Assembly (NCBI GenBank): GCA_949130485.1
Contig: OX422183.1
Span: forward strand, 21,941,202-22,005,201
Direction: 5' to 3'
Length of the DNA: 64,000 bases
Origin: Agelas oroides
Taxonomy: Eukaryota; Porifera; Demospongiae; Agelasida; Agelasidae
Shown piece after piece: positions 10,801-37,419 of this stretch. Every line of letters begins with the position of its first letter. Position 1 is the stretch's first letter. The notes under the pieces are model-generated. The model was not told where the DNA came from, did no database searches, and saw only the letters and a list, made by a program, of their open reading frames with translations. Made by a program: the position numbers and the translations under genes.

Positions 10801-13800
10801 CTGTTTGTCTGCAACAAACTTTTGGACACTCCGTCTCATGAGCTTCCGGTTACATGGACTGAACTCTTCACAAACATGACATTGTTTCTTTTACAATCAA
10901 CATTTCAGAAACTGCCACAAATCAAAACACCACCAGGCTCTGTAAGTGAACTACCTAGCACTGTGCAGTCATTTCTTCGTGACTTATCAACTGTAGCTTT
11001 TGAGAATCTCACCGCTGAGTCTTTTCATTTGACCTTGCCAGCAGCAAGATGTCTTGGCCATGGGAGTGGTTTTGCACTGGTACATCCTTATAGCAAACCA
11101 TTGTGCCGCAGTGAGAAACAGTGTTTTCAGTTTTCCTCTCCACTGCTTCAGCAATTCTTAGCTGCACTACATGTACATAGCCTACCACTATCAAAACAAA
11201 CAGAGCTTATGGTGCACAAGTCAGAGCTGAATTTTCTTTGGCAATTCTTTGCTGGGCTGCTTGTCTCTGAATCATATGACAGGTTTCGAAATCTGAGAAA
11301 TGCGTTTCACAAGAAGAAAATGAAAATGCTAGCCAATTGCGCATATGAAGCTGACTGGTTATGTGACATGCCATCTGTTTTCAGAGACCATATTCTAACA
11401 CCTGCTGATATGCATCATGTCACAACTGGTTTTAAGTTTCCACCAGGTTTGTTGAATTTTAAACAATGCTACTTTGGGAGAGCAACTCTATTTCAGCTGA
11501 AAAGACAGGTGCATGCACTTGCTCAAAGTGGACAGCAAGGCTTCAGAGTGAGGTAAGTCATGACTCTGTGTCCTGGTTAACTGGGGTTGATGCTGTATCC
11601 CTAAGATAATCTATCAGGTTTTCAGTGTTTAGGAAAGTAATATCAGCTTATCACAAGGACAGAATTTATGAACTTATTACTGTGGTTCAGTCAGACTCCC
11701 ACATTTGGTTGCAAGAGCCAATAACAGTTTGCATTCTTTGCACTGAAATTAAGTACAAATAGCAATCTTGATGTTGCAAGCTATGTGAAAGGCTGTACCA
11801 GGTATAAAGATAGGACAAACTCTAGCAGAAAATCACATATTGTCTGAGTTATTGCTAAGCGGTGTGCAAGGCATCCACTGCTTAATTTTCAGCAGTTTCT
11901 TTCCTACAGTTTTGAGGATTGCATTTTTTCATCTGAAGGTCTTTGGTCACTTGCAGCAGCACCATTTCAAGAGCTGAGGTATCTCTAGGAATCTGTAGTA
12001 TTTGTTCCCTTCAAAGAAGGTTCCTCACCTACTGTAGTAACTACTGCCACTTTCCTCTCAGTACAGACACCATACCACCAATTAATTGAAGCCATACCTG
12101 CACTGCTGGAGGTTAATTGTTGCCATAGCAGCAGAACATGATTTTAAATATACATATTGAAATGCCATGTTATATGTACGGACATTTGGCTTGCCGCCTT
12201 TCTGAGATGCTTTATATGAAAATCTGCTATACAAAAGTTTCATTTACGGTATGTAATTTCCAATTGAAGATCTCTGGCACCTCTGGTGTATGTTGAAGAC
12301 TTATCATTACCATAGCAACAAAACATTGTTAATGTGGATGTACCTCAAGTGTGTTTGTGTCTGATTATACCCACTACAGCCTCAGAGACAATGGTCTAGC
12401 TGACACTGGAGCCATAGCTCTGGCCAGAGCATTGCAACATAAGTCACTGGAAGAACTGTAGTAAGTTGTAAACTGAGTGTCTTACTATCATATGGTTGGT
12501 AATTTTCACAGCACATACTTTCACAAAACAGGCCCTAATCCGGGTTTCAGAAATTTTCGTGACTTTAATTTTCGTGGTCTGCTGTATCTGGAACCCACAC
12601 GTTAGCTAGCTGTGCGGATAAAAGCTGAGCACATGTCTAGAATTGTCTACGGAGAGAGATGGCAATCTTGGCTCTTTGTTACTATATGAGAAGAAAAGAT
12701 ACGCAGGCACAACCAGACTAGGTATAAAGTAACCTCATAGCTAGGCTGTTCATGAAGGCGATTGTTTACGCTCTCAGCCCTGCGCCGCCATCCAGTTTGT
12801 TGGTCTGCGCTTACGTAGCGCTTTGATTTCCCAATTGGCCTGAGCAATAGCCGTCAAAAGCACACTTGCTGACAGGCTTCTACTAAAGCAGTTAGGCTAG
12901 ATAGTGAAGTAGTGCCATATTGAAACGCGATTCGCTCGCTGTGTACATGATCAGCGAAAATTTTGCAGTTTTAATTTTCACAAATGGCTCTTGACTCGTG
13001 AAAAACACAAGTACTCTCTTCTACAGTCTTGGACGGAATAGAATTAGAGATTCTGGAGCCACTGTCCTGGCTGATGCTCTGAGAATGAACAAGAGCTTGA
13101 CAACACTAAAGTAAGTAACTATCCTGGCCCCATACTGACCTATAAGCAAAGTGTTATGAGCATGATATGGTTGTCCTAGGTGACAGTGGTCCCTGTGTGG
13201 TCTCCTTGTACTGTGACGACTGGTGCTAGTAACTACTGTCACTTTCCTCACAGTACTTCTAGTTGAAGCCATATCAACATCACTGAGTTGTCAGTACACT
13301 AGTAACAGAAACATGGAATTTGTACACACATTATGTTGCTATGACAACAGCAATACATATTAGCTAACCACCATACTGAGACATTTTGTATGTGTAAGAA
13401 TCTGATGTGCTACGTTTTAGTCAAATGTGTTAATTGAAGCCCAAACGAGTATAATTTGCCCCTTCTGGAGTTATCATTGCCATAGCAACAGAAACATTCT
13501 CCTATTCTACTGACTCTCAGTGATGACATAAGCCTATGTTAAACTGACTGACTGTCCCATTAATTGATTTTCACTACTTGCACTAATTCTGGAGTACTCT
13601 CTTCCACAGTCTTGAATGGAATGGAATTGGAGATTCTGGAGCCACTGTCCTGGCTGATGCTCTGAGAGTGAACCAGAGCTTGACAACACTGCAGTAAGTA
13701 ACTATCCTGGCCCCATACTGACATATAAGCAAAGTGTTATGAGCATGATATGGTTGTCCTGGGTGACAGTGGTCCCTGTGTGGTCTCCTTGTACTGTGAC

Positions 13801-16800
13801 GACTGGTGCTAGTAACTACTGTCACTTCCCTCACAGTACTTCTAGTTGAAGCCATACCAGCATCACTGAGTTGTCAGTACACTAGCAACAGATACATGGA
13901 ATTAGTATACACATTATGTTGCTATGATAACAGCAAATCAAATTAGCTAACTGCCATACAGAGGCATTTGCATGTGTAAGAGTCTGATGTACAAAGTTTT
14001 AGTCAAATGTATTGATGCCCAAACCAAGGGCGTAGGAATAGAGGGGGCTAGGGGGGCCACTACTGGGGAGGCTTAGCCCTCCATCCTCACTGTATTTATA
14101 TAGGTACTCGGGTAAGTACTTAGTTGTGCAAGTCCACGGGTAATTAATACAGGAGCATCTGTAGCTTGTACAGCAACAGGTTGCAAATGAAGCGACTATC
14201 GTCTTTTGAATATTGCCTGTATCCAATTCCATGTAGGAGAAGAGAGCGCATCCAAAGGCGAGTTTTCACTAATTAGTGGGTGTGGTTTAAAAAATGTTCG
14301 CCGCACGCTTTGCACGCGGTATCTTTTACCAATACTACTAAAGCTTTGCCCCCCCCCCCCCCCCTACTAAATAGTCTTTCCTACGCCACTGGCCCAAACG
14401 AGTATCATTCGGACCTTCTGGAGTATCATTGCCATAGCAACGGAAACATTGTCTCTTTTATTCTACTGACTCTTAGTGATGGCATAAGCCTATGTTAAAC
14501 TGACTGACTGTCCCATTAATTGATTTTCACTTCTTGCATTAATTCTGTAGTATTCTCTTCCACAGTCTTGGAAGGAATGAAATTGGAGATTCTGGAGCCA
14601 CTGCCCTGGCTGATGCTCTGAGAGTGAACAAGAGCTTGACAACACTGCAGTAAGTAACTATCCTGGCCCCATACTGACCTATAAGCAAAGTGTTATGAGC
14701 ATGATATGATTGTTCTGGGTGACAGTGGTCCCTGTGTGGTCTCCTTGTACTGTGACGACTGGTGCTAGTAACTACTGTCACTTTCCTCACAGTACTTCTA
14801 GTTGAAGCCATACCAGCATCACTGAGTTGTCAGTACACTAGCAACAGAAACATGGAATTTGTACACAGGTTATGTTGCTATGACAATAGCACTACAAATT
14901 AGCTAACCACCATACAGAGGCATTTTGCATGTGTAAGAATCTGCTAACCTCTACAGAGGCACTTTGCATGACTTGTGTAAGAAGTTTAGGTTATAGTACA
15001 AGGTGGAAGCGGTTTAGCAATTTATTGGCTGACACATAGTGGGATAACCTACTTCTACCACAGCAATGTAGCATAGCAACATAATTGACCACAGTGAAGC
15101 CAATAATTCGGCAGACCGGCCCTACTCAGGTGGGTTAAGGCGAGCTCCGAATGTATTGTTCGTGATACGGAAGTATGCGAAAGTATCACTATAATTCGTG
15201 GACGTTTCGTTACAATTTACGGAGTCTGAATGGCTGCCGTGTGAAGGCTTCTTAGCTTTACTAGCTGTGTTATGGCCGTTAGTCTGTACTGTATAGGTTT
15301 TTGCTATCGATGATTGTTAACTAGATAGGTCTAACTCGCAGCAGTGCTACGGCTGGACGAAGAGTTTTGTGTTTCTGGAAGCAAGAAACGGGAAAAAGGC
15401 TCGAGCCCGTTCGTTTAGTAGCCGACCTCAGCAGCCAGACCCCCCGACGCGGTGCCGAATTTGAGAGAACTCGGTGTGTAACTCCGGTAAATAGGAACAG
15501 CTATCATGCATCCTTCATAATCCGACTGGAGAGACGGTCCCTATTGCTTCTTAAGAGTAGGAGAGTTAGTAAAATTTATAATTAGCTGCTATTTTGGCGT
15601 ATTTCAAGGCATTTTTGTCGATTTACTCGTGACGTGAACTTACCATACTCAATTTCCAGTTAGTTCCGAATTCTGCGCGTGAAGAGCATTCCAATGGTAC
15701 CAACTTTGCCTAGTTATAAGGAATATACGGCACCGCGTAGGCTGAAATAGTGTTAAGGCAGCCTTAATTAGTGGACGTTGTTTACCAGAGGGTGTGGCGT
15801 TTCCATGGAAACCAATTTGTTTGTTTACATCATCAACCACAATACAATAACAGGATACAAAACAAAAACCAATAGTGGACTTCTTGTCTGCGAAATACAC
15901 CATAAACTTTCTGTGGCAAGTAGTCAGAACAGTGCTTCTCCACAACAAAAGCCTGCCTTAACCCACCTGAGTAGACAAGGCCAATAAATTTCCTAACAGT
16001 TTGCATGAGGACTTTACGAGGGCTAGAGCACTGTCGGTGCCTCTGATTTATATCGATGCTGTGGTAGAATCTGATGTACAAAGTTTGAAATGTATTGAAG
16101 CTCATAGAGTATCATTTGCCACTTCTGAAGTTGTCATTGCCATAGCAACAGAAACATTCTATTCTACTGACTCTTAGTGATGGCATAAGTCTATGTTAAA
16201 CCCGACTGACTGTCCCATTAATTGATTTTCACTACTTGCGCTAATTCTGGAGTACTCTTTTCCACAGTCTTTGGGGGAATAAAATAGAAGATTCTGGAGC
16301 CACTGTCCTGGCTGATGCTCTGAGAGTGAACAAGAGCTTGACAACACTTGAGTAAGTAACTATCCTGGTCCCATACTGACCTACAAGCAAAGTGTTATGA
16401 GCATGATATGGTTGTCCTAGGTGACAGTGGTCCCTGTGTGGTCTCCTTGTACTGTGACGACTGGTGCTAGTAACTACTGTCACTTTCCTCACAGTACTTC
16501 CAGTTGAAGTCATACCGGCATCACTGAGTTGTCAGTACACTAGCAACAGAAACATGGAATTTGTACACACATCATGTTGCTATGACAGCAGCTATGCTAT
16601 TTACCTAACCACTTTACTGAGGCATTTTGCACGTGTAAGAATCTGATGTACAAAGTTTTAGGATAGATAATATACCCTCCCCGGGATTGGAAACAGCTCA
16701 CGTGATGCTATGTATATAGTGGTTAAGCTCGTGGACAGAGTGCGTTGGAGTTTTCGTCACTTTCGAGGTGTTGATTACATTGATCTTGACCTGCAGTAAA

Positions 16801-19800
16801 AGTGCCCTTTCACTGAGAAAGAAGCAGAAAGCTACAGATAACTTGCACAGGTAAGCGATTTTAAGCTTTTTAACAAGCTGTCATGGGTGTGCATTAATAG
16901 TAGCATTAACCTACAGGAGTTCATAAGCCAGCTGTGCTCTGTTGGGTGTTACTTATGGTGTTAGTATTAAAGCGGCTAGATAAGGAAACTTTTATTGGGT
17001 CTCAGTCCAACTAAACTACCAGCTATACTGATATTTGCAAAGTAGTGGATGGTATAGTGACTGAACTTTTGCATAGATGCACATTTATACCCAGCATGCC
17101 CTTTCTTTGGAGATGGTCCGAGCTTTTGTCTAAAATTGGTGAAGTTAATGTCTTCATGCTTTGTGGGGGATCTACATTCACATTATACATCTGCTGATAC
17201 TACCACAGTATGCCTAGAACCATCTATGTTTGCATGGTTTTTTAAAGTAGGTCTATGTTTCAAGCACAGTACAAGTTACACCATCTTTTATCCGACCCGT
17301 TTAGCACTGACCGTGGACTATGCCTGGGAGACTATTTTGACTCAGAGTCCACAGGAAAAATGAGGAATGCAAGAAGGTGGTGGAGCACATGACAACTCCG
17401 GCATGCAAGAGTTCCAGAAGCACATGCAAGCTCTGAGGGTAACAAACTCATTTGCCAGGGGGCCAGCAAAGGGGAATTGCAGAGGCTTTGATTGCGATTA
17501 CACAGAAGTTAACATACAGAAAAGAACAAACTCTTAGGACAATTCGATCTAAATTGTAATATCTTATCATAAATTCTTATCTTGTGACCGTACAATAAAA
17601 TGCACAATCATAGACCTATCTATGACACAATGCAACATGAAAGACATCATCCCCCAATCATCGCTTGCACAACGGTTTCGAGGTAGCTGGACACTAAACA
17701 AATAGCACAACAGTGTTATATATACACCAAAAAAGCTTTTATCAGTATTGAATGATAAAATATGGATGTTCGTACGTTGAATGGACTGGTCGTGAAGAGC
17801 CATCACTTTCGCTTGAACTATGTATTCCAAATAACGCCAACCAGATAACAGAACTTGCAACGCTTCCGGTGCAACACGGATGGGACGTGTGACTACATGA
17901 TAAATGTCTCAAATCTCAGGGAGGGTATATTATCTATGGTTTTAGTCATATGAAATGTGTTGAAGGCTATACGAGTATCATTTGCCCCTTCTGGAGTTAT
18001 CATTCCCATAGCAACAGAAACATTCTCCTATTCTACTGACTCTTAGTGATGGCATAAGCCTGAATGTCCCATTAATTGATTTTCACTACTTGCACTAATT
18101 CTGGAGTACTATCTTCCACAGTCTTGGATGGAACAGAATTGGAGATTCTGTAGCCACTGTCCTGGCTGATGCTCTGAGAGTGAACAAGAGCTTGACAATA
18201 CTGGAGTTAGTAACTATACTGACATATAAGCAAAGTGTTATGAGCATGATATGGTTGTCCTGGGTGACAGTGGTCCCTGTGTGGTCTCCTTGTACTGTGA
18301 CGACTGGTGCTAGTAACTACTGTCACATTCCTCACAGTGCTTCTAGTTGAAGCCATACCAGCATCACTCAGTTGTCAGTACACTAGGAACAGAAACATGG
18401 AATTTGTACACAAATATTTTGTTGCTATGACAACAGTAAATCAAATTAGCTAACTGCCATACAGAGGCACTTTGCATGTGTAAGAATCAGATGTACCAAG
18501 TTTTAGTCATATGTATTGAAGCCCAAATGAGTATCAATTTCCCTTCTGGAGTTATCATTGCCATAGCAACAGAAACATTCCCTCTCCTATTCTACTGACT
18601 CTTAGTGATGGCATAAGCCTATGTTAAACCTGACTGACTGTTCCATTAATTGATTTTCACTACTTGCACTATCCTGGAGTACTGTCTTCCACAGTCTTGA
18701 ATGGAATGGAATTGAAGATTCTGGAGCCGCTGCCCTGGCTGATGCTCTGAGAGTGAACCAGAGCTTGACAGCACTGCAGTAAGTAACTATCCTGTCCCCA
18801 TACTGACATATAAGCAAAGTGTTATGAGCATGATATGGTTGTCCTGGGTGACAGTGGTCCCTGTGTGGTCTCCTTGTACTGTGACGACTGGTGCTAGTAA
18901 CTACTGTCACTTCCCTCACAGTACTTCTAGTTGAAGCCATACCAGCATCACTGAGTTGTCAGTACACTAGCAACAGATACATGGAATTAGTATACACATT
19001 ATGTTGCTATGATAACAGCAAATCAAATTAGCTAACTGCCATACAGAGGCATTTGCATGTGTAAGAGTCTGATGTACAAAGTTTTAGTCAAATGTATTGA
19101 TGCCCAAACCAAGGGCGTAGGAATAGAGGGGGCTAGGGGGGCCACTACTGGGGAGGCTTAGCCCTCCATCCTCACTGTATTTATATAGGTACTCGGGTAA
19201 GTACTTAGTTGTGCAAGTCCACGGGTAATTAATACAGGAGCATCTGTAGCTTGTACAGCAACAGGTTGCAAATGAAGCGACTATCGTCTTTTGAATATTG
19301 CCTGTATCCAATTCCATGTAGGAGAAGAGAGCGCATCCAAAGGCGAGTTTTCACTAATTAGTGGGTGTGGTTTAAAAAATGTTCGCCGCACGCTTTGCAC
19401 GCGGTATCTTTTACTAATACTACTAAAGCTTTGCCCCCCCCCCCCTACTAAATAGTCTTTCCTACGCCACTGGCCCAAACGAGTATCATTCGGACCTTCT
19501 GGAGTATCATTGCCATAGCAACGGAAACATTGTCTCTTTTATTCTACTCACTCTTAGTGATGGCATAGGCCTATGTTAAGCCCAACTGACTGTCCCATTA
19601 ATTGATTTTCACTACTTGCATTAAGTTAATTCTGTAGTATTCTCTTCCACAGTCTTGGAAGGAATGAAATTGGAGATTCTGGAGCCATTGTCCTGGCTGA
19701 TGCTCTGAGAGTGAACAAGAGCTTGACAATACTGGAGTTAGTAACTATACTGACCTATAAGCACGGTGTTATGAGCATGATATGGTTGTCCTGGGTGACA

Positions 19801-22800
19801 GTGGTCCCTGTGTGGTCTCCTTGTACTGTGACGACTGGTGCTAGTAACTACTGTCACTTTCCTCACAGTACTTCTAGTTGAAGCCATATCAGCATCACTC
19901 AGTTGTCAGTACACTAGGAACAGAAACATGGAATTTGTACACAAATATTTTGTTGCTATGACAACAGTAAATCAAATTAGCTAACTGCCATACAGAGGCA
20001 CTTTACATGTGTAAGAATCAGATGTACCAAGTTTTAGTCATATGTATTGAAGCCCAAATGAGTATCAATTTCCCTTCTGGAGTTATCATTGCCATAGCAA
20101 CAGAAACATTCCCTCTCCTATTCTACTGACTCTTAGTGATGGCATAAGCCTATGTTAAACCCGACTGACTGTCCCATTAATTGATTTTCACTACTTGCAC
20201 TAATTCTGGAGTACTCTCTTCCACAGTCTTGAATGGAATGGAATTGGAGATTCTGGAGCCACTGCACTGGCTGATGCTCTGAGAGTGAACCAGAGCTTGA
20301 CAACACTGCAGTAAGTAACTATCCTGGTCCCATACTGACTTATAAGCACAGTGTTATGAGCATGATATGGTTGTTCTGGGTGACAGTGGTCCCTGTGTGG
20401 TCTCCTTGTACTGTGACAACTGGTGCTAGTAACTACTGTCACTTTCCTCCCAGTACTTCTAGTTGAAGCCATACCAGCATCACTGAGTTGTCAGTACACT
20501 AGCAACAGAAACATGGAATTTGTACACAGATTATGTTGCTATGACAACAGCAATACAAATTAGCTAACCACCATACTGATGCACTTTGCATGTGTAAGAA
20601 TCTGATGTACAAAGTTTTAGTCAATTGTATTGATGTCCAAACCAAGGGCGTAGGAATGGGGGCGCTAGGGGGGCTGTAGCCCCCTTTCACAACTACTGGG
20701 GAGGCTTAGCCCCCCCTCCTTCACTGTATTTATATAGGTACTTGGATAAGTACTTACTTAGGTGTGCAAGTCCACGGGTGACTAATACAGGAGCATCTGT
20801 AGCTTGTACAGCAACAGGTTGCAAATGAAGCGATTATTGTCTTTTGAATCATGCCTGTGAGATGAGAGCGCATCCAAAGGCGAGTTTTCACTAATTAGTG
20901 GGCGTGGTTTAAAAAAATGTTTGCCGAGCACTTTTCACACGGTATCTTTTACCAATACTACTAAAGCTTAGCCTCCCCCCCCCCCCCCTACTAAATACCC
21001 TTTCCTATGCCACTGGCCCAAACGAGTATCATTCGGCCCTTCTGGAGTATCATTGCCATAGCAGCGGAAACATTGTCTCTCTTATTCTACTGACTCTTAG
21101 TGATGACATAAGCCAATGTTAAACCCGACTGACTGTCCCATTAATTGATTTTCACTACTTGCACTAATTCTGGAGCATTCTCTTCCACAGTCTTTGGGGG
21201 AATAGTATTGGAGATTCTGGAGCCACTGTCCTGGCTGATACTCTTAGAGTGAACAAGACCTTGACAACACTGCAGTAAGTAACTATCCTGGCCCCATACT
21301 GACCTATAAGGAAAGTGTTATGAGCATGATATGGTTGTCCTGGGTGACAGTGGTCCCTGTGTGGTCTCCTTGTACTGTGACGACTGGTGCTAGTAACTAC
21401 TGTCACTTTCCTCACAGTACTTCTAGTTGAAGCCATACCAGCATCACTGAGTTGTCAGTACACTAGCAACAGAAACATGGAATTTGTACACACATTATGT
21501 TGCTATGACAACAGCTATGCTAACCTCTACGGAGGCATTTTCCATCTGTAAGAATCTGCTAACCTCTACAGAGGCACTTTGCATGTGTGGTTATAGTATG
21601 AGGTGGAAGTGGTTTAGCGATTTATTGGCTGACACAAAGTGCAATAACCTAGCTACTTCTACCACAGCAATGTAGCATAGCAATGAAGTTTAACAATAGT
21701 TAAACTAAGTTAAAAGTCGAGGTGAGCTAGAAAAGGAGGAGGGGAGCCAGTGCGCATGCGTGGGAGAGGTCTCCAGGATCACATGGTTCATCAGCAGCAC
21801 TCTTATCAAAGCACCAGACGGTGAATAGCCCCAGCGTGAATCCAGCGAGTCTTTGACATGGGCTGCACCCGACGAGAAGCATGGCGGAGGGCAAACGCGC
21901 GGCTGAACGGGAAGGAGGCGTACACGGCGAAGTGTCGGCCGAAATTGCCATGCCAAGGGACATATCGGTGGACGCCATTGTGGAGCGGGTCTTGGAGCGC
22001 CTCGGCAGAGAGGGAGTCCAGCCGGTAACCCCGACGGGTACAGGCGAGGGTAGTTCATCTAGTGGGGGATCATCAGGAGGTGAGTAGAGTGCCATCATTC
22101 TGGGACAGTTCCATGGTGAAGCCGATGAGCGGAGCCTCGGGAATGCAAAGTATACGGGCGTGGATGGCGTACATCCCGTTCTCCCCCCTTGCCGATTAAT
22201 GGCAAAGGCAGAACGGAAGATCTTTTTAACTAACCATGGCCAGGGAGAAATTGGGGACATAGCAGCATGGCAATGTCCATCATTGGAGGTGGGACATGTG
22301 GCAAGGCTACAGTCAGCATAGGTCGAAACATGGCCGTGGTGCCATATCGCAGGCATAGAGCATTGCAAAGGTGCAGTGCCTCAGTCGAGGGAAGAGGTGT
22401 ATAGTAGTGGGACGAAACCACCTACAATGGAGGGTGGGGAATGCACGGTGTAATGCCTTAGTCAAGAAGGTTAAGGCATTGCCAGGGTGCAATCCTGTGG
22501 TCAGGATAGACCAGGAAGTGGCAGCAGTGTGATATCACAGGTCGCGGCATAGCCAAGGTGCGATGCCAGAGATGGTGAAGGTGGGAGGCAGGGCCAGGGT
22601 ACAATGCCACAGACAGTGGAGGTCAGAGGAATGAGGACCCCAAATAAATTGAGGTTGGGGTGCCACCACATCGCGGGGGTGTGTAGAAGTGGTCCGAAAG
22701 CTAAAAAAATGGGGGACACCTCCATGAGGGAGGTCAAGGTAGCAGGTGGTGGCGGGGTGGAAGTTTGATATCAGAGATGACATCAGGGTAAAACATGATT

Positions 22801-25800: not shown

Positions 25801-28800
25801 GCATGTTTTGAGTGATGCGTCAGGATCATGGGGGTGTGGGGCTTATTGGAAGGGAGAGTGGTTCCAGGTGACATGGAGTTTGAACAAGCTCCTATAGCAG
25901 CAAAAGAGATGGTGCCGATTCTTGTGGCTGCAGCAGTATGGGGAAGGAGGTGGAGGGGACTCACAGTTTGTTGCCATTGTTACAATGAAGCAGTTGTGGC
26001 TTCCATACAGGCAACTATTGCAGGCAGTTCAACATGGCTCATATGCTGTGTTGTTTGTTTTTTCTGGAAGCTAAGTTTGGATTCATTTGCTCAGCAATCC
26101 ATATCCCAGGAGTAAACAATGGCATAGCAGATGCACTATCAAGAAAACGCTTAGATGTGTTTCGTACTCTTGCTCCACAGGCCAGGTCAGAGCCAACCTT
26201 AGTTCCGCGAGGACTGTTGGAGGGTCTGATGGGAGACAAGCCATGGACATCAGCAACATGGGAGAGATGGTTCATTACTATTTAAAACATTCATTAGCAG
26301 ACTCAACTCTGAGAACATATGAATCAGGAAAATGACGTTATATAAGGTTTTGTGCAAGTATTGACCAGGCCCCGCTACCAGTATCAGAGAAGCAATTGTG
26401 TGAGTTTGTTGCAAGCACAGCAAAAGAAGGTCTCAAACACCAAACAATTAAATCCTACTTGGCTGCGGTCAGACATATGCAGATACTAGCTGGGTGGGGT
26501 GATCCACTCATACACAGTATGCCATTGCTGGAGTATGTGCTAAGAGGGGTAAAGTCAGAACAGGCAAAGAACCCAACATCCTCGCAGCGGACACGTCTTC
26601 CCATCACTCCAGCAATCTTGAGGAAGGTACGCCATGCCCTGGAGAAGGACAAGACAAGCTATGACCATGTAATGCTTTGGGCAGTGTATTGTACTGCCTT
26701 TTTTGGGTTCCTGAGGTCAGGGGAGGTAACCGTCCCGTCGTTGGCGGCATATGACCCTGGAGCAGATTTGAGCTATGGGGACATAATATTCAACAGCCAA
26801 ACTCACCCAACACTTGCCAAGGTAAATATAAAAGCATCTAAAACAGACCCCTTTCGTATAGGGGTGTTGATCTACTTGGGAAAAACAAATTGTGACCTAT
26901 GTCCAGTGGCAGCACTGGTTGCCTGCCATGCAGTACGGGGATCAGGGGTAGGTCCATTTTTTTGATTCAGGGAGGGCACTCCCTTGTCCAGGGAGAAGTT
27001 GGTGCAGAAGTTAAGGGAGCACTTAGCAGAAGTAGGGGTGGACTCGGCCAAATTTTCGGGACATAGTTTTCGAATTGGTGCAGCGACAACTGCCAGTGAA
27101 CGAGGAATTCAGGACTCAATGATCCAAACATTGGGCCGGTGGAAGAGTGCGGCCTATTTACGGTATGTGCGCATCCCTCGACAGGAACTGGCAAGCATAT
27201 CCAAGACTCTTGTGTCATGATGGCCCCAAGTGGGGTCCTTTGAATCTGTACCTCTGCATGTGTGTGATGTAGGACATGTCATATGTGCAGTTGTTGTGAG
27301 GATGAGAGAATTCTAGGAATGGCATGTGCTTGGGAGCAGGGTCTTCATGTCCAGTCCGTGGGCCATAATACGGGAGCATAAGGTTATAGCTCCGACATTA
27401 ATCCCCCAATCACATGGGGTTAGGGTGGGGGAGATCTCAGTAAGGAAAAGAAGGGGGAGACATCACAGGAGTTATGTGCTAACTCCAGTCTCCATCGGGC
27501 ATGCAGGCCTGGCTCACCTACCAAACCCTTACCTCTTGTGAGAGCCCAAGCCGGGAGGTGTTGTTGACGGGTTGTGTTAGTATACGAACCGTAGATTGTG
27601 AAATGAAGTTTAACAATAGTTAAACTAAGTTAACAGTCGAGGTGAGCTAGAAAAGGGGGAGGGGAACCAGTGCGCATGCGTGGGAGAGGTCTCCAGGATC
27701 ACATGGTTCATCAGCAGCACTCTTATCAAAGCACCACAAGGTGAATAGCCCCAACCAACCACCCACCCAAATCACAGGGTATAGCTTGCTCATTCACACA
27801 GGTAGGGTGTGGATCCTTTCATCTCCACCAATGGTGGCCAGTAGCTACTGCTGGTGTGACTAGAGCTGGGCCAGTTGTCTCGATGTAGGCTTTGTTGTTC
27901 AGGTTGTTGTTTTGACCTAGGCGGGCCATAATGCGGCAGCATAAGCTTATAGCTCCGACATTAATCCCCCAATCACATGGGGTTAAGGTTGGGGAGATCT
28001 CAGTAAGGAAAAGAAGGGGGAGACATCACAGGAGTTATGTGCTAACTCCCAGTCTCCATCGGGCATGCAGGCCTGGCTTACTTACCAAACCCTTACCTCT
28101 TGTGAGAGCCCAAGCCGGGAGGTGTTGTTGACGTGTTGTGTTAGTATACGAACTGTAGATTGTTAAAGAAAATTGACCACAGTGAAGCCAATAAGTTGGC
28201 AGACCACTGTTGGTGCCTTTGATTTATATGGCTGCTGTGGTAGAATCCGATGTAGTTTGAAATGTATTGAAGCCCATAGAGTATCATTTGCCCCTTCTGG
28301 AGATCTTGTTGCCATAGCAAAAGAAACATTCTCTCCTATTCTACTGACTCTTAGTGATGGCATAAGGTGACACAAACCTATGTTAAATCTGACTGACTGT
28401 CCCATTAATTGATTTTCACTACTTGCACTAATTCTGGAGTACTCTCTTCCACAGTCTTGAAGGGAATGGAATTGGAGATTCTGGAGCCACTGCCCTGGCT
28501 GATGCTCTGAGAGTGAACCAGAGCTTGACAACACTGCAGTAAGTAACTATCCTGGCTCCATACTGACCTATAAGCAAAGTGTTATGAGCATGATATAGTT
28601 GTCCTGGGTGACAGTGGTCCCTATGTGGTCTCCTTGTACTGTGCATGTAGGATGTTTTAGTCACATAAAATCTATTGAAGCACATACGAGTATCATTCGC
28701 CCCTTCTGGAGTTATCATTGCCATACCAACAGAAACATTCTCCTATTCTATTGACTCTTAGTGATGACATAAGCCTATGTTAAGCCTGACTGACTGTCCC

Positions 28801-31800
28801 ATTAATTGATTTTCACTACTTGCACTAATTCTTGAGTACTCTCTTCCGCAGTCTTGAAGGGAATGGAATTGGAGATTCTGGAGCCACTGCCCTGGCTGAT
28901 GTTCTGAGAGCGAACAAGAGCTTGACAACACTGCAGTAAGTAGCTATCCTGGCCCCATACTGACCTATAAGTGAAGTGTTATGGGCATGATATGGTTGTC
29001 CTGGGTAACAGCGGTCCCTGTATGGTCTCCTTGTACTGTGACAACTGGTGCTAGTAACTACTGTCACTTTCCTCACAGTACTTCTAGTTGAGCCATACCA
29101 GCATCACTGAGTTGTCAGTACACTAGCAACAGAAACATGGAATTTGTACACACATTATGTTGCTATAATAAGAGCAGTGAAAATTAACTAGCCACTATAC
29201 TAAAACACTTTGCATGCGTAAGAATCTGATGTACCAAGTTTTAGTAAAATGTGTTGAAACCCATACGAGTATCATTTGCCCCTTCTGGAGTTATCGTTGC
29301 CATAGCAAGAGAAACATTCTCTCTCCTATTCTACTGACTCTTAGTGATGGCATAAGCCTATGTTAAACCTGACTGACTGTCCCATAATTGATTTTCACTA
29401 CTTGCACAAATTCTGGAGTACTCTCTTGCACAGATTTAGATGGAATGCAATTGGAGATTCTGGAGCCACTGCCCTGGCTGATACCCTGAGAGTGAACAAG
29501 AGCTTGACAACACTGCAGTAAGTAACTATCCTGGCTCCATACTGACCTATAAGCAAAGTGTTATGAGCATGATATGGTTGTCCTGGGTGACAGTGGTCCC
29601 TGTGTGGTCTCCTTGTACTGTGACGACTGGTGCTAGTAACTACTGTCACCTTCCTCACAGTACTTCTAGTTGAAGTCATACCAGCATCACTGAGTTGTCA
29701 GTACACTAGCAACAGAAACATGGAATTTGTACACAGGTTATGTTGCTATGACAACAGCTATGCTATTTACCTAACCAGCATACTGAGGCATTTTGCATGT
29801 GTAAGAATCTGATGTACAAAGTTTTAGTCATATGAAATGTGTTGAAGCCCATACGAGTATCATTTACCCCTTCTGAAGTTACCGATGCCATAGCAATGGA
29901 AACGTTCTCTCTCCTATTCTACAAACTCTTAGTGATGGCATAAGCCTATGTTAAACTGACTGTCCCATTAATTGATTTTCACTACTTGCACTAATTCTGG
30001 AGTACTCTCTTCCACAGTCTTGATGCGAATGAAATTGGAGACTCTGGAGCCACTGCCCTGGCTGATGCTCTGAGAGTGAACCAGAGCTTGACAACACTGG
30101 AGTAAGTAACTGTCCTGGCACCATACTGACCTATAAGCAAAGTGTTATGGGCATGATATGGTTGTCCTAGGTGACAGTGGTGCCTGTGTGGTCTCCTTGT
30201 ACTGTGATGACTGGTGCTAGTAACTACTGTCACTTTCCTCACAGTACTTCTAGTTGGAGCCATACCAGCATCACTGAGTTGTCAGTACACTAGCAACAGA
30301 AACATGGAATTTGTACACACATTATGTTGCTATGACAACAGCAATGGAATTTACCTAACCACCATACTGAGGCATTTTGGATGTGTAAGAATCTGATGTA
30401 CAAAGTTTTTACAACAGATTGCAAAAGTCTAAAGTTGTTCAACAAACCCACAATTCAATAATGAATATGATTATGCATTAAGGAATGGTCATGGTGTCTC
30501 GAAGCTCTGCAGGGCCTTACCACACGTAAACGTATTCCAGTGACCTGCGATGGCGTATGGTGCACCAGAAGGTACTCTTAGGTTTGACATGCAGGCAAGT
30601 AGGTGTAAATCTGAATGTAGATGCCTCTACAGTCAGCAGGGTAGTATAAGCAGGTTCTAGCAAACGCACGGGAGATGTAGATGAGCATCCTAAAAGTGGG
30701 AGACCTACAGCATTGACAGCATATGATGAATTTGTGATAGTGGAAAATATATTAACCCTTTTACCCCGACGCACATGCGCAGAAATCGATCGCATGGTTA
30801 CGAGAGAAGCTAATAAAAAATGGCGATTTTGTGTAGTGTTGATTCATTGCGTTAAAATAGCTGAGTTCAGGCAATGATAGTTAGGCTTGGCTTAGTTGAA
30901 AACAAACCTGCTTTACTCAGAATGTAGTCAGAAGACCTGCTAGTGAAATCTACAACGGTGGAAACGTAGGTACCCGCTGTGTACCTGAAAATGACCGATA
31001 ATACATGGCGAAAGTTGGCAGACAGTTTCAGCAAAGGTACGTTTCAACTGTTGTTGACACGATTAGATAGTATATAAACGATAGAACATGTAGCGTGTGG
31101 ATATAAGCTGTACTGTGGCCAACTACGATCAGCAGGCAAACTTCAAACACGATTTTGAGGGGAAGTCCCTATAGGACACACCAGCTAATTATGCTTCAAT
31201 TGGCTTCCTGTTGCACGTAATAACTAACTCCAAGTCCAAAAGGGCGCAGCGATCACAATAAATAGCGGAACCAAAGTGTGGGCGCATTTGGCTGCTATTG
31301 GGTGTAATGGGTTAACAAGGCCTTCCATACTTATCTGCGAGAGATAGTGCATGACATGAAGCAGGTCACTAGTACTGAGGTAGATGAAGCTACTGTATGC
31401 AGGTTTTTCAATTCTCAAGAAAAAAACTGCAACAAGTAGCACAACAGCGAAGTGCAGATTTGCGATCCGAGTTTGTATCAGATTGCTCTGTTTATAGCCC
31501 AGAAATGTTAGTGTTCCTTGATGAAACCGGATGTGATAAACATTACGTAAATTTGGCTATAGTTTAGTTGGAAAGCGGGCACCCTCTACCTCTCTGCTTG
31601 TGTCAGGTATTCAGCGATTGGGGTTCTCACTGTTGAAGGAATTCCAGACAGCTACATAACATCACAAAGTATAGATGCTGAAAAGTTTGAAGATTTTGTA
31701 GACAAGTGCCTAGTTCGACACCTTATGCCCTTTAATGGAACAAATCCAATCAGTGTTGTTATACTAGATAATGCATCTATGCATCATGTCGATCACATAG

Positions 31801-33476
31801 TACAGATTATTCAAAGTGTTGGAGCCCTAGTTCACTTTTTACCACCCTACTCACCTGATCTTAATCCGATGGAGGACTAGGGATTTTCAAAAATCAAGGG
31901 ATGCTTGAAAGCTAATGAAGCTGCCATCCAGGCTGTACCTGAGCATGAATTGGAAGATTTTATATTAGCTGGATTTGCATCTATAACAAAAGATGATTGT
32001 GTTGGATGGATAAAAAGTGCTGGATATATGTGATAAATAGTAGCTGATATACTGCACGATGTAATTTGTATTCCATAGTTTGTTTAGTTTTGTAAACATA
32101 CTAAGATGCATTGAGTCCTCTCAGATCACACAAAAGGAGGTGCTTTTGCTCTGAAAACTCTAAGCACAGAGTTTTCTCTTAGTTGTTGTAGTGTGCTAAG
32201 CTGCTGTACATATTGTCCACTCAAATTAGCTTTACTTGCAACTGCCTTTTTGGGGTGTGAACCTACATTGCAGGTGGGAGATGCATTTGTACCAGCCATG
32301 AAGTTGTGGAGTACTGTATTCATCACTCTCCTGTAAAATCTTGAAGGCTTCCTCAATATCCTGTTCCTTCTTTGCCCGCTTGCTAACAGATCGGTCTTCA
32401 TCCACACTGTTTGTGCGCTTAGTCTGAGACTTTGCAGCACCACATGTATTAGCATTAGCATCCTTACCATCACACCACAGTATAATAGTGTTATCATGTG
32501 GGTATACAGTGTACATAGCTTCCAAGTCATCAGAGGATTCTATCCAACGCGCTTTGCATTTCCTGGTTTTTCATAATAACCCACACTGAAACCACTACTG
32601 GTATCGGGGACCTGGTCTGCAAAAGTTTCCATCAGTTTCATCTTGAGAACATCAGGTGATGAAAACTTTTCATTGACATGATGCCAATTCCGAACAGAAA
32701 ATAGACTCTTCCGAGTAGGGTTTATTATTCGTACTACATAGTTGTACTTTCTTGTCTCACCAACTGTCCCTAAAAAAGGAAGATGAGCATCATGACCGGC
32801 TCTAAATGGAATAACCAAAAGTCCTAATTAATGCTCACTGTAGAGTGAATACATGTATACACGTATATGCCATGCTTATTACCATACCTCCTCACTGCAG
32901 GAATGAAACAGAGCTTTTTGTATGAGAGAAGTAACCACAACTAGTTAGAGTACTGTATTAAATACCTGAAGTGCTTGGATGGTCCAATTCAAGGGGGGGA
33001 CTTGAAGTTGCTGGCCCAAAATAGTACATTGAGCCATAGTAAGCCGCTGGAGGAGCTGGTCTAGGGTATAAGTGCCATTGTTGCATCGTTTGTTACGGCA
33101 CGGTAAAAATAATTAGATTCATGGATGGTAAATTATTGTGGTTTTTCCAATGTCAGCTTGCTTGTTGTAAGACCCTTTTGCAATCTGCTGTAGTCATGTG
33201 AAATGTGTTGATCGAAACCCATATGAGTATCATTTGCCCCTTCTGGAGTTATCATTGCCATAGCTACAGAAACCTTCTCTCTCCTATTCTACTGACTCTT
33301 AGTGATGGCATAAGCCTATGTTAAGCCCGACTGACTGTCCCACTAATTGATTTTCACTACTTGCACTAATTCTGGAGTACTCTCTGCCACAGTGTTGGAG
33401 GGAATAGAATTGGAGATTCTGGAGCTGCTGCCCTGGCTGATGCTCTGAGAGTGAACAAGAGCTTGACAACACTGGA
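1568..33476 (+). CDS. NLR-type receptor: Death, helical domain, Death, NACHT, LRR array
   Basis: Exons read from the sequence: 1568-1858, 8845-9939, 10007-11552, 11910-11978, 12380-12460, then 84-bp LRR exons starting at 13027, 13610, 14566, 16268, 18122, 18695, 19653, 20227, 21191, 28455, 28852, 29434, 30018 and 33393. All junctions are GT..AG and phases agree: 1 at 1858/8845, 1 at 9939/10007, 2 from 11552 onward. The product would be a cytosolic NOD-like receptor: Death domains for adaptor recruitment, a NACHT ATPase for oligomerisation and LRRs for ligand sensing (family knowledge). The first exon with a start codon and the terminal exon with a proper stop were not found. No frame break was seen in about 4.4 kb of exon sequence, although five distinct kinds of transposable element sit in the introns. 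Whether all LRR exons enter one transcript is unknown. Confidence 0.75.
2726..3014. other. Flank of the gypsy insertion; possible older element end
   Basis: Starts after a TTAA with a strong palindrome (CCCTCGGCGCACATGCGCGAGGG), then a GT-rich stretch of TGTGTCTG repeats. It is interrupted at 3019 by the LTR element and resumes at 7302. Together with 7302-7975 it may be one older element, possibly Helitron-like, but matching termini were not proven. Confidence 0.3.
3020..3190 (+). repeat. 5' LTR of the gypsy element
   Basis: 171 bp, begins TGTCGTAATT and ends TATGACA. A TATATAA box-like stretch lies near 3130. Matches 7131-7301 except about three positions. Confidence 0.95.
7131..7301 (+). 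repeat. 3' LTR of the gypsy element
   Basis: 171 bp with the same termini as the 5' LTR, preceded by a purine tract and followed by the second copy of the CATGT target duplication. Confidence 0.95.
7371..7450. repeat. Short direct duplication
   Basis: About 31 bp (AGAAAGGTATGCCCACAGTG followed by TAATACCGTAG) occurs twice, about 50 bp apart. Function not evident. Confidence 0.8.
7556..7774 (+). pseudogene. Helitron-like N-terminal fragment
   Basis: A 72-residue open frame contains KERDKVRIASKTASETHEQT followed by LHRQEQNQTHLA. The ETxEQxLxRQEQNxxH style is typical of the repeated N-terminal region of Helitron Rep-helicase proteins (recognised by eye). No Rep or helicase domain is present, so this is at most a truncated remnant inside the NLR intron, just right of the gypsy insertion. 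A simple charged hypothetical peptide is the alternative. Confidence 0.35.
7849..7966. repeat. Tandem hairpin repeat, 72-bp period
   Basis: Two copies of GATTAATAGCACTT..ATTCGGCTTC..CCTCA. The first forms a 16-bp stem (AATGTCCAAAATAGCA with TGCTATTTAGGGCATT). This resembles a hairpin near a Helitron 3' end, but no clean CTRR terminus was identified. Confidence 0.5.
7978..8110. mobile_element. Foldback MITE with 23-bp inverted ends
   Basis: GACACTGAGACCAAGGGATC at the left is mirrored by GATCCCGTTGGTCTCAGTGTC at the right. The interior is GC-rich. Same size class as 1266-1402 but with different termini. Confidence 0.65.
8845..9939 (+). CDS. NLR exon: helical N-terminal domain and second Death domain
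   Basis: 365 codons. An in-frame ATG at 8874 offers an alternative start if the upstream Death exon is skipped. Residues about 10-130 form a helical domain (LKEFLESY, YINYMHYYLLEDIVEAF, AKELLQQY) of a kind seen in uncharacterised Death-domain proteins of early animals; its partner is unknown. Residues about 150-250 look like a mixed alpha/beta linker. The last 90 residues are a Death domain (LNDICSEQFLEAFSKDLQDW, IAPYFSIHEWNIKEL, QALLCWKKAEGSTATYYNLL, GEVEALLQKLG). Donor AAG|GTAACT follows 9939 and the intron is only 67 bp. Confidence 0.85.
10007..11552 (+). CDS. NLR exon: NACHT ATPase and winged-helix region
   Basis: About 515 codons. Walker A is GAPGQGKSFL near 10293-10322; Walker B VVFVLDGYHQQ follows near 10510-10542. 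Downstream come sensor-like STYTPNIRR, the helical region LASTPVHLYTLLFVC and FQFSSPLLQQFLAALHV, which fits the end of NACHT-associated winged-helix domains. These are the motifs of a STAND-class nucleotide switch (family knowledge). The Walker B aspartates are fewer than the usual DD/DE doublet: LDG then polar residues. Donor GAG|GTAAGT follows 11552 in phase 2. Confidence 0.9.
11910..11978 (+). CDS. NLR exon: diverged LRR (69 bp)
   Basis: Acceptor CTACAG, donor GAG|GTATCT, phase 2 on both sides. Encodes SFEDCIFSSEGLWSLAAAPF then QELR, a degenerate ribonuclease-inhibitor-type repeat linking NACHT to the LRR array. Confidence 0.6.
12380..12460 (+). CDS. NLR exon: LRR (81 bp), outside the amplified family
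   Basis: Reads SLRDNGLADTGAIALARAL, then QHKSLEEL: a standard RI-type repeat, diverged from the later cassettes and one codon shorter. Donor TA|GTAAGT, phase 2. Confidence 0.8.
13027..13110 (+). CDS. LRR cassette exon 1
   Basis: 84 bp, CTACAG|..|GTAAGT. Variable residues: L-G-R-N-R-I, followed by R-D instead of the usual G-D. Last two bases AA. Confidence 0.88.
13610..13693 (+). CDS. LRR cassette exon 2
   Basis: 84 bp. Variable residues L-E-W-N-G-I. Last two bases CA. The following intron holds a hAT-like MITE, as after exons 6 and 8. Confidence 0.9.
14025..14391. mobile_element. hAT-like MITE, CAGTGGCGTAGG termini (copy 1)
   Basis: Ends CAAGGGCGTAGGAA and TTCCTACGCCACTG, flanked by the 8-bp duplication GCCCAAAC (14017-14024, 14392-14399), the hallmark size for hAT. 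Carries a long C-run near its right end. Also present at 19110 and 20643. Confidence 0.8.
14566..14649 (+). CDS. LRR cassette exon 3
   Basis: 84 bp. Variable residues L-G-R-N-E-I. Last two bases CA. Confidence 0.9.
15122..15974. mobile_element. Non-autonomous TIR transposon in LRR intron
   Basis: Inverted ends CTACTCAGGTGGGTTAAGGC and GCCTTAACCCACCTGAGTAG match over 20 bp. About 850 bp, no transposase recognised. A GGCC sits near both sides but a clean target duplication was not resolved. A similar end motif (CTCAGGTGxGTTAAGG) occurs at 39.33 and 43.77 kb. Confidence 0.75.
16268..16351 (+). CDS. LRR cassette exon 4
   Basis: 84 bp. Variable residues L-W-G-N-K-I, followed by E-D. Last two bases GA. 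Confidence 0.9.
16662..17938. mobile_element. 1.28-kb TIR element in LRR intron, family unassigned
   Basis: Ends GATAGATAATATACCCTCCC and GGGAGGGTATATTATCTATG match at 19 of 20 positions. The 7-bp duplication GTTTTAG (16655-16661 and 17939-17945) agrees with the empty site in sibling introns (AAGTTTTAGTCA). Short open frames on both strands (17136-17363 plus, 17567-17860 minus) match no family I recognise. Confidence 0.8.
18122..18205 (+). CDS. LRR cassette exon 5
   Basis: 84 bp. Variable residues L-G-W-N-R-I; the usually fixed DSGA is DSVA here. The donor is GTTAGT rather than GTAAGT, as in exon 7. Last two bases GA. Confidence 0.85.
18695..18778 (+). CDS. LRR cassette exon 6
   Basis: 84 bp. 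Variable residues L-E-W-N-G-I, followed by E-D. Last two bases CA. Exon and next intron nearly duplicate exon 2 and its intron, 5,085 bp upstream. Confidence 0.9.
19110..19472. mobile_element. hAT-like MITE, CAGTGGCGTAGG termini (copy 2)
   Basis: Same termini, same GCCCAAAC duplication and same intron position as copy 1, differing mainly in the length of the C-run. It was carried here by segmental duplication, not by a new insertion. Confidence 0.8.
19653..19736 (+). CDS. LRR cassette exon 7
   Basis: 84 bp. Variable residues L-G-R-N-E-I. GTTAGT donor. Last two bases GA. Confidence 0.87.
20227..20310 (+). CDS. LRR cassette exon 8
   Basis: 84 bp. Variable residues L-E-W-N-G-I. Last two bases CA. 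Confidence 0.9.
20643..21015. mobile_element. hAT-like MITE, CAGTGGCGTAGG termini (copy 3)
   Basis: Same intron position as copies 1 and 2, with more interior differences. Flanks GTCCAAAC and GCCCAAAC, one mismatch. The shared position marks exons 2, 6 and 8 as one lineage. Confidence 0.78.
21191..21274 (+). CDS. LRR cassette exon 9
   Basis: 84 bp. Variable residues L-W-G-N-S-I. Last two bases CA. The next intron contains the Ngaro fossil. Confidence 0.9.
21684..21832 (+). repeat. Ngaro A1 repeat
   Basis: About 149 bp, starting TGAAGTTTAACAATAG and ending GTGAATAGCCCC. Matches A2 at 27604 with about five or six differences. Confidence 0.88.
24012..24242. mobile_element. Tc1/mariner-type MITE nested in the Ngaro element
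   Basis: TA duplications at 24010-24011 and 24243-24244 flank inverted ends CCGTATAGCTCCAAATTTTT and AAAAATTTGGAGCTATACAG. The interior is rich in AATTTTCGTG motifs; similar motifs occur at 12.54-12.98 kb. Confidence 0.75.
27360..27603 (+). repeat. Ngaro B1 repeat
   Basis: 244 bp starting GGGCCATAAT. Directly abuts A2, as expected for the split-repeat structure. Confidence 0.88.
27604..27752 (+). repeat. Ngaro A2 repeat
   Basis: Direct copy of A1. A spacer of about 170 bp separates it from B2. Confidence 0.88.
27923..28167 (+). repeat. Ngaro B2 repeat
   Basis: Direct copy of B1 with about ten differences. Intron sequence (AATTGACCACAGTGAAGCC) resumes immediately after it. Confidence 0.88.
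28455..28538 (+). CDS. LRR cassette exon 10
   Basis: 84 bp. Variable residues L-E-G-N-G-I. Last two bases CA. The following intron is shortened to about 313 bp by an internal deletion. Confidence 0.9.
28852..28935 (+). CDS. LRR cassette exon 11
   Basis: 84 bp. Variable residues L-E-G-N-G-I, identical to exon 10 there. Conserved ADAL is ADVL and LRVN is LRAN. Last two bases CA. Confidence 0.9.
29434..29517 (+). CDS. LRR cassette exon 12
   Basis: 84 bp. Acceptor TGCACAG|A, so the split codon ends in A, not T. Variable residues F-R-W-N-A-I, the most divergent start. Last two bases CA. Confidence 0.88.
30018..30101 (+). CDS. LRR cassette exon 13
   Basis: 84 bp. Variable residues L-D-A-N-E-I. 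Last two bases GA. Confidence 0.9.
30480..32034 (+). pseudogene. Tc1/IS630-like DDE transposase, decayed
   Basis: An N-terminal helix-turn-helix part is visible around 30.57-30.75 kb (GVNLNVDASTVSRVV, then GRPTALTAYDEFVI). It continues after the nested insert (YLREIVHDMKQVTSTEVDEA). The catalytic core follows: FLDETGCDKHYVN near 31.52 kb, VVILDNASMHHVDHIV near 31.76 kb, then LPPYSPDLNPMED. A TAG follows that glutamate-aspartate, and at least one frame change lies between 31.4 and 31.6 kb. The tail WIKSAGYM ends at 32034. The order D, DN, E fits the DDE_3/IS630 clan. Inactive as it stands. Confidence 0.8.
30756..31311. mobile_element. piggyBac-type non-autonomous element nested in the transposase
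   Basis: TTAA at 30752-30755 and 31312-31315 flanks ends CCCTTTTACC and GGTGTAATGGG. The transposase reading (VENIL..) resumes beyond the second TTAA, as expected for a clean TTAA insertion. Confidence 0.7.
32100..32818 (-). pseudogene. Transposon-borne companion protein, PB1-like region
   Basis: Reads leftwards from an ATG at 32818. First block: MVIPFRAGHDAHLPFLGTVG, then VVRIINPTRKSLFSVRNWHH, then FSSPDVLKMKLMETFADQVP and FSVGYYEK. Next block: RWIESSDDLEAMYTVYPHDN, then IILWCDG. A charged region with SKRAKK (NLS-like) ends it. The pattern KMKLxExF..FxVGYYE..WI.S.DDL..MY..I.LWCDG resembles a PB1/ubiquitin-like fold (inference by eye). The frame changes by one base near 32535. It lies tail to tail with the transposase inside the same inverted repeats, so it is probably an accessory gene of the element. 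Confidence 0.6.
33393..33476 (+). CDS. LRR cassette exon 14
   Basis: 84 bp. Acceptor GCCACAG. Variable residues V-G-G-N-R-I. Last two bases GA. This is the last exon found; the intron-like sequence after it fades out by about 33.93 kb. Unspliced, the donor gives an immediate TAA. Confidence 0.87.
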
Positions 33477-36665: not shown

Positions 36666-37419
36666 AATTATGTATCTATCGATGTGTGGATTATTGTGTG
36701 GTTAACACAGATTTTTGTCTGCATTTTAGACTTGGATATCTGGGAACCATCTCAAAGAGCACAAGGAAGCTACTTAGGGACAATAAAAGAATTGAATGAA
36801 ATTATCTTGAATTATTTGATGATTTGTCTGATGATTATTTTGATGATGGTTATTATTAATATTATGATGACATGGATTTATATTGCCACACACATTAATC
36901 TTTATATACTGTGTTAGCTGCATGCAGTTAGTACTGACAAACTCAATGTTTACAACATACAGTCGTTTATTGTACATGTCTGGTTTTGTAAACACATTGA
37001 TTCAGTCATTCTCTCGAGGAAAGCATCTTCTCATGTTCGTTTTGCACCCTGCATGAGAGGGAAGAAGGAGTGAAGTATAAGACTATAGATTAAAATGTCT
37101 ATCTCACATACCCTCTTTTATATGTTTATCTTGAATAGCATCTGCAACACAATGGTAGCCTCTGGATGCAAATATAACTGGAAGTCTTCAGTGAAGACAT
37201 ACCCAGCGCTGTTTTATGATATAAACTGAGGTTATTATTTTAACAGTTTTCAGTATAGGGATGTCATGAATGGTTTCACATATATTCTGCTTAGTGTATG
37301 GTTTGCATGGTGTGAGGTGTTTGTTTCAGGGAAGCTGATACATGCATGTTATATCTGCTGATGTTCGATTGTAGAGGTGGTGGTTGGTATGTTATGTGTG
37401 CCAAGTCTGTGGCTGTTCG

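Follow-up and report, generated by a model that had tools for sequence, protein, structure and literature searches.

In the fungal NWD family (Podospora het-d/het-e), the repeats are of the WD40 type and the function is heterokaryon incompatibility (PMC1805685, PMC4986451; here and below, as far as the available text of both papers goes). The exon array described here resembles this NLR-like family in that near-identical repeats are exchanged within and between genes and that few surface codons are under diversifying selection; distinct combinations were counted in 55 of 69 fungal repeats at 4 codons, versus 76 of our 95 cassettes at 6 codons (PMC1805685, PMC4986451). Unlike here, the repeats of fungal NLRs are WD40, ANK or TPR, LRRs were not found there, and the available text does not describe the NWD repeats as separate exons, whereas each cassette here is one (PMC1805685, PMC4986451). 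No WD40 family appeared among our Pfam matches, in which the repeats are LRR_6.

The LRR-ROCO genes of brown algae share with the present array one LRR per exon, phase 2 and a fixed exon length; the available part of the source reports four positively selected concave-face sites and alternative splicing of LRR exons (PMC11378527). The algal exons are 72 bp long and go with a ROC-COR GTPase, whereas ours are 84 bp and go with Death-NACHT (PMC11378527, available part). ROC-COR was absent among the Pfam matches of our Death and NACHT exons.

Lamprey VLRs consist of LRR modules with variable concave residues; they are secreted or anchored and are assembled somatically from a germline bank. The likeness, which the earlier note had drawn, is limited to LRR modules with variable residues, the cassettes here being known from one assembly. 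We know of no family of near-identical cassettes in human NOD/NLRC genes comparable to this one. Similar to our gene, these carry one 28-aa LRR per frame-preserving exon behind the NACHT (PMC6642158, available part). In zebrafish NLR-B30.2 genes, LRRs also lie on single exons and vary in number, but in the available text the authors call them not particularly variable and place the variation in B30.2 (PMC4852459). Dysidea avara, with a genome of 575 Mb, has many NACHT-LRR genes, some clustered, 25 of them with a Death domain (NLRD), and NLR groups with up to 30 LRRs; the main text of that paper, as available, is without the terms "exon", "tandem", "hypervariable" and "positive selection" (PMC12909245). 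Among titles and abstract beginnings in the open literature, we recognised no description of a cassette design in animal NLRs; Yuen 2014 was outside this scope. The locus described below is thus a case of a known logic (fungal WD repeats, brown-algal LRR exons), here with each 28-aa LRR on its own exon and in NLRs of the animal type.

A predicted NLR gene with single-exon LRR cassettes

We analyzed a stretch of 64,000 nucleotides from Agelas oroides (Porifera), referred to as the window. Fourteen exons had been pointed out in it by the earlier note, and we found all 14 of them to be 84 bp long, stop-free and bordered by AG/GT on the plus strand between 13027 and 33476. The gene model around them is as follows, cassettes being labelled by residues 3-4/6; exons 3 and 4 are bounded by AG/GT and in frame.

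8679..9939, plus strand: exon 1 of the NLR gene model, open from 8679, first ATG at 8727, start uncertain, donor after 9939
About 9720-9902, plus strand: Death domain in exon 1 (Pfam PF00531, E 4.2e-06, 27.3 bits versus a cutoff of 22.6)
10007..11552, plus strand: exon 2, NACHT ATPase exon by Pfam match, ends in phase 2
About 10282-10677, plus strand: NACHT match in exon 2 (Pfam PF05729, E 1.2e-14, 55 bits versus a cutoff of 26.7)
11910..11978, plus strand: exon 3, 69 bp, phase 2-2, linker or first divergent repeat
12380..12460, plus strand: exon 4, divergent 81-bp leader LRR exon (LRDNGLADTGAIALARALQHKSLEEL)
13027..13110, plus strand: cassette exon 1, GR/R
13610..13693, plus strand: cassette exon 2, EW/G
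14566..14649, plus strand: cassette exon 3, GR/E
16268..16351, plus strand: cassette exon 4, WG/K
18122..18205, plus strand: cassette exon 5, GW/R, donor gttagt
18695..18778, plus strand: cassette exon 6, EW/G
19653..19736, plus strand: cassette exon 7, GR/E, donor gttagt
20227..20310, plus strand: cassette exon 8, EW/G
21191..21274, plus strand: cassette exon 9, WG/S
28455..28538, plus strand: cassette exon 10, EG/G
28852..28935, plus strand: cassette exon 11, EG/G
29434..29517, plus strand: cassette exon 12, RW/A, starts A-F, not T-L
30018..30101, plus strand: cassette exon 13, DA/E
33393..33476, plus strand: cassette exon 14, GG/R, starts T-V
36730..36799, plus strand: proposed last exon (ELGYLGTISKSTRKLLRDNKRIE, stop), phase-compatible, in-frame splice

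The combinations at residues 3, 4 and 6 agreed exactly with those listed before: ten kinds in fourteen exons, with EW/G three times, GR/E and EG/G twice each and seven singletons. All 14 window cassettes are in phase 2-2, with the split codon at the same place in each, so that any one could be gained, lost or skipped with the frame kept. The predicted splice of the 19 exons modelled from genomic DNA stays in frame to the stop and yields 1384 aa. An 85-aa spliced, C-terminal stretch in the same frame as NACHT matched LRR_6 in Pfam (E 3.3e-18). When the PDB was searched by sequence with the repeats, ribonuclease inhibitor 1dfj was matched (E 1e-30 with 168 aa, 1.3e-39 with 443 aa), as were NLRP structures and 5irm, an NLR listed as uncharacterised that we take to be NOD2. 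The Death, NACHT and LRR_6 matches and the in-frame splice model bear out the assignment to the NLRs and support a predicted Death-NACHT-LRR (NLRD) receptor. Searches with Rfam (at gathering score) and ARAGORN (tRNA genes) gave nothing within the window, and no relatives of the NACHT protein were confirmed in bacterial/archaeal and viral contigs.

The window also contains other elements. Upstream of the NLR gene lies an LTR retroelement (3020-7304) with two 174-nt copies that are 98% alike; fragments of its reverse transcriptase (E 1.2e-30) and integrase (E 2e-15) are spread over several frames. A second element (21682-27753) lies in the intron between cassette exons 9 and 10; its bounding copies of 152 nt are 97% alike, its reverse-transcriptase match is weak (E 0.0042, below the curated cutoff), and by eye one of its ORFs resembles a tyrosine recombinase, DIRS-like, with no Pfam match. 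Farther downstream we noted a tandem array with steps of mostly 65 and 69 bp (37425-38630) and, at 49225-51765, ORFs with a match to Chlamydia PMP-type repeats (E 1.8e-07) followed by a stretch that is hydrophobic by eye.

The cassettes are not limited to this gene. In the assembly (259 Mb, 141 contigs), a 34-nt cassette core (at most 2 mismatches) occurred 284 times, 186 times forward and 98 times in reverse, versus 0 for the reversed control and thus far above chance, and leader-type exons resembling exon 4 were also found near other arrays. The NACHT exon was detected at 18 places genome-wide at 66-100% identity, self included (2 on contig C1, 11 on C8 and 5 on C7), the next matches having at most 35%; the 17 besides the window's own showed 66-88%. 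Six of the 18 had one or two stops in the aligned stretch, the first 40 residues of which are intron in the gene model. From these three contigs, 107 AG-84-GT/GC LRR exons were collected. Twelve were dropped beforehand (7 leader-type on C1 and C8, 5 on C7), and the remaining 95, the selection set, were assigned to ten genes by the nearest upstream NACHT. In a motif-free scan of the C1, C8 and C7 DNA examined (60-nt core, ungapped, at most 15 mismatches), all 95 copies kept AG, 84 bp, an open frame and GT. In a genome-wide protein search, 149 of 1128 candidate matches were scored, six of them with a stop codon; two of the six belong to the 95 cassettes, where the split codon TA was read into the intron's G, and four lie outside the C1, C8 and C7 DNA surveyed for cassettes.

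Probable selection at residues 3, 4 and 6

The earlier note had described changes confined to four surface positions. Among the 91 exon pairs of the window, 272 of 643 nonsynonymous differences fell on residues 3, 4 and 6 (0.42 per site) and 281 on the 22 background codons (0.065 per site), the rest being distributed over the split codon (53) and residues 8-9 (37). Change is therefore concentrated as claimed, but "confined" is too strong. As to the number of positions, only three (3, 4 and 6) were named behind the announced four, and two more are fast in the 95 cassettes, namely residue 8 and residue 1 (H/N/D/Y), whose codon is interrupted by the intron.

For the main test, a maximum-likelihood (ML) codon model was applied on the intron tree of the 95 cassettes, with the flanking introns as neutral control (158 columns upstream, 300 downstream). 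Residues 3/4/6 showed an omega of 8.05 (LRT versus omega 1, 62.6; p=2.5e-15), this and the other p-values being indicative only, because the exons recombine. The dS at these residues was 1.15 times the intron rate, and replacement ran at about nine-fold the intron clock. Since the positions came from the window, the 81 cassettes outside it provide the fair test, and they gave an omega of 8.20 (p=4e-13, signed LRT 52.6); 60 random triples from the other 25 codons reached a median signed LRT of 1.0 in the same test, the largest being 26.5. The window's 14 exons alone, for which the positions were chosen post hoc, gave 9.06 (p=0.0014). The check suggested at the outset, dN/dS at the three residues, thus came out far above 1 in every set.

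The signal was robust. Omega was 7.41 with the 84 distinct exons, 10.8 with a core-flank tree and 8.96 with kappa 5, and two shuffles of the tips gave 6.7 and 7.7, showing that the tree contributes nothing to it. Parsimony counting yielded a dN/dS of 2.70 (p 1.6e-5). Residue 3 alone was not significant by parsimony (p 0.43; ML p 0.006). The reason is Trp, whose codon TGG requires a change at the third base that such counts may score as synonymous; without the 11 exons bearing Trp there, its signal was strong, and that at 3/4/6 held. Furthermore, in 47 disjoint nearest pairs, pN at 3/4/6 was 7.1 times the intron divergence (bootstrap 5.3-9.9), and replacement divergence in the other 22 codons was 0.48 times. 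By ML on the 95 cassettes, these 22 background codons had a replacement rate of 0.32 of the intron clock; their dN/dS, 0.87 (1.27 in the window), was not below 1.

Neighbouring residues were also fast in the ML analysis. Residues 8 and 9 together had an omega of 21.5, with very few synonymous changes, and residue 8 alone gave an LRT of 25.0. Residue 9 (p7) was faster than the introns, its omega not being above 1 (p 0.52). For the split codon, the LRT was 14.9 with the third base set to T, the first base of 90 of the 95 exons. In summary, these results support diversifying selection on residues 3, 4 and 6 of the cassettes.

Origin of the variants and alternative explanations

The exons had been taken for a fresh duplication with near-identical introns. 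Identical exons at 575-578 bp steps, at two places on C8, show that tandem duplication is recent in places. Some cassettes follow one another about every 580 bp as near-identical tandem copies, and the scaffold is kept similar from gene to gene. However, intron distances in the window average 0.113, so not all copies are fresh. Likewise, the introns are near-identical close to the exon only: pi was 0.03-0.11 in the first 200 downstream columns; of the 158 upstream columns, 101-140 had 0.06-0.07 (the pi table stops 18 columns before the end), and further out the values were 0.12-0.29. Within the columns tabulated, the low-divergence block extends over 200 columns downstream of each exon and about 60 upstream of it, and it may be a conversion tract or functional intron. 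A conserved RNA structure was considered and rejected, the folding energies of the downstream (-75.9 kcal/mol versus -70.8, sd 5.4, in 50 shuffles) and upstream intron consensus (-23.0 kcal/mol versus -21.2, sd 3.5, shuffled) being unremarkable. Three cassette introns (window 14112, 19197 and 20750) share a 109-nt repeat, its copies 92-100% alike, with a poly-C tract behind it, an arrangement suggestive of duplication in larger units.

Judged by introns, 56 of the 95 cassettes had their nearest neighbour within their own gene (a mean of 13 on shuffling) and the other 39 in a different one, with median distances of 0.083 within and 0.092 between genes. The mutual distances of four NACHT exons, one of them partial, were 0.068-0.135, similar in size to these medians. 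This is the pattern expected of partial homogenisation accompanied by some exchange, and it does not amount to complete concerted evolution.

Short gene conversion from an older cassette pool could make the mosaic, with selection mainly picking the variants that persist. We regard this as a serious possibility short of the probable; it is compatible with our preferred explanation and differs from it in the origin of new combinations. In line with conversion, most of the six-codon combinations are distinct, and the variable codons are loosely associated with one another (p <=0.02 in 4 of 15 codon pairs; 84 distinct exons). Among 20 near pairs, eight differed at 0-1 and eight at 4-5 of five variable codons, where a binomial expects 4.0 and 3.5, although differing pair ages would also widen this spread. 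In the closest pair, the introns differ at 0/157 and 2/300 positions, and the five exon changes all fall within 16 bp. No exact second copy of its 30-nt or 25-nt block, that is, no donor for either block tested, was detected in this one assembly, which speaks against conversion; the block may stem from conversion from an unseen allele or from rapid selected point change.

Next, the surface positions could simply be free to vary, without selection for change. By the LRR motif, they are solvent-exposed, and variability is usual at such positions. Moreover, the excess at residues 3, 4 and 6 shrinks when measured against distal intron: the mean pi of 0.44 at their first and second bases is about 1.5-3.6 fold over it, a factor that depends on the stretch chosen, because intron divergence climbs with distance from the exon. 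The low divergence of the flanking introns may itself result from conversion or constraint. Relaxed sites should, however, approach a ratio of 1, and replacement here is about eight-fold the synonymous rate and nine-fold the intron clock; we therefore consider relaxed constraint unlikely.

A targeted or hotspot mutation process in the first third of the exon, acting without selection at the protein level, is similarly improbable. It could account for the closest pair, with its changes clustered in an otherwise unchanged exon and no visible donor for its two blocks. It could also account for the CTA/CTG alternation in the final Leu codon, adjacent to the split codon: this synonymous third base varies as much as the selected sites (pi 0.51, 95 cassettes), so that local hitchhiking or a hotspot may act there. 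A lone variable site is nothing exceptional in itself, as 41 of 458 intron columns exceed a pi of 0.3. However, a base-blind mutator should also strike third bases, and these are nearly fixed at residues 4 (G in 92/95), 6 (A in 92/95) and 8 (A in 95/95). Residue 3 is less uniform (A 81, G 12, T 2 of 95), its departures occurring mostly with Trp; Gly at this residue was encoded by GGA 43 times and by GGG once. The synonymous rate at 3/4/6, near that of the introns, already makes a plain hotspot unlikely, and without the 11 Trp-at-3 exons it drops to 0.06 of the intron rate.

Finally, an assembly artefact or decaying repeat DNA instead of a coding array is very improbable. The difficulty of assembling repeats, the retroelements upstream and in one cassette intron, and the six genome-wide protein matches with a stop could be cited for it, but all 95 examined copies are intact, their spacing is irregular, the frame is continuous through the gene model, and other contigs carry arrays as well.

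Position of the variable residues and proposed function

Mapped onto the motif L-x-x-L-x-L-x-x-N-x-I, the fast codons correspond to x5 (the split codon), x7, x8, x10 and x12. The motif places residues 1, 3 and 4 at canonical positions of the strand and residues 6 and 8 just beyond it, in the loop. The strand positions x2 and x3 (Thr-Thr in the cassettes) are nearly fixed in the 95 cassettes, unlike in plant receptors, in which variation usually affects the whole strand. According to our own mapping, x3 is selected in the brown-algal exons, whereas the matching Thr is near-fixed here (PMC11378527, available part). Judging from the LxxLxLxxN motif, the homology to ribonuclease inhibitor and family knowledge, the variable side chains would be located on the concave strand and the adjoining loop.

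We conclude that the gene probably encodes a Death-NACHT-LRR receptor with a solenoid of tandem one-exon LRR cassettes, the putative contact codons of which appear to be under diversifying selection: at codons 3, 4 and 6, the split codon and residue 8, amino-acid replacement outpaces synonymous change several-fold and also exceeds the rate of the introns. In the mechanism we propose, the cassettes would build a ligand-binding solenoid, duplication and exchange among at least 284 cassettes would supply variants, and positive selection would retain novel side chains on the concave strand of every turn and in the loop next to it. The LRR face might then recognise a varied target, microbial or non-self, and recognition could lead to NACHT oligomerisation and Death-domain signalling. 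Thus, the gene may have an immune role. That cells of one animal splice, or even recombine, different cassette subsets, so that each NLR gene would give many receptors and the whole would be an anticipatory system, seems to us rather doubtful.

The locus brings the receptor design of fungi and brown algae, a conserved repeat scaffold with few selected contact residues, to animal-type NLRs, with a pool of at least 284 cassettes. Changes in specificity thereby become readable from sequence, and the direct question arises whether invertebrate cytosolic receptors are diversified by repeat exchange or by splicing. If the combinatorial reading were true, this would be an anticipatory receptor repertoire in an animal without lymphocytes.
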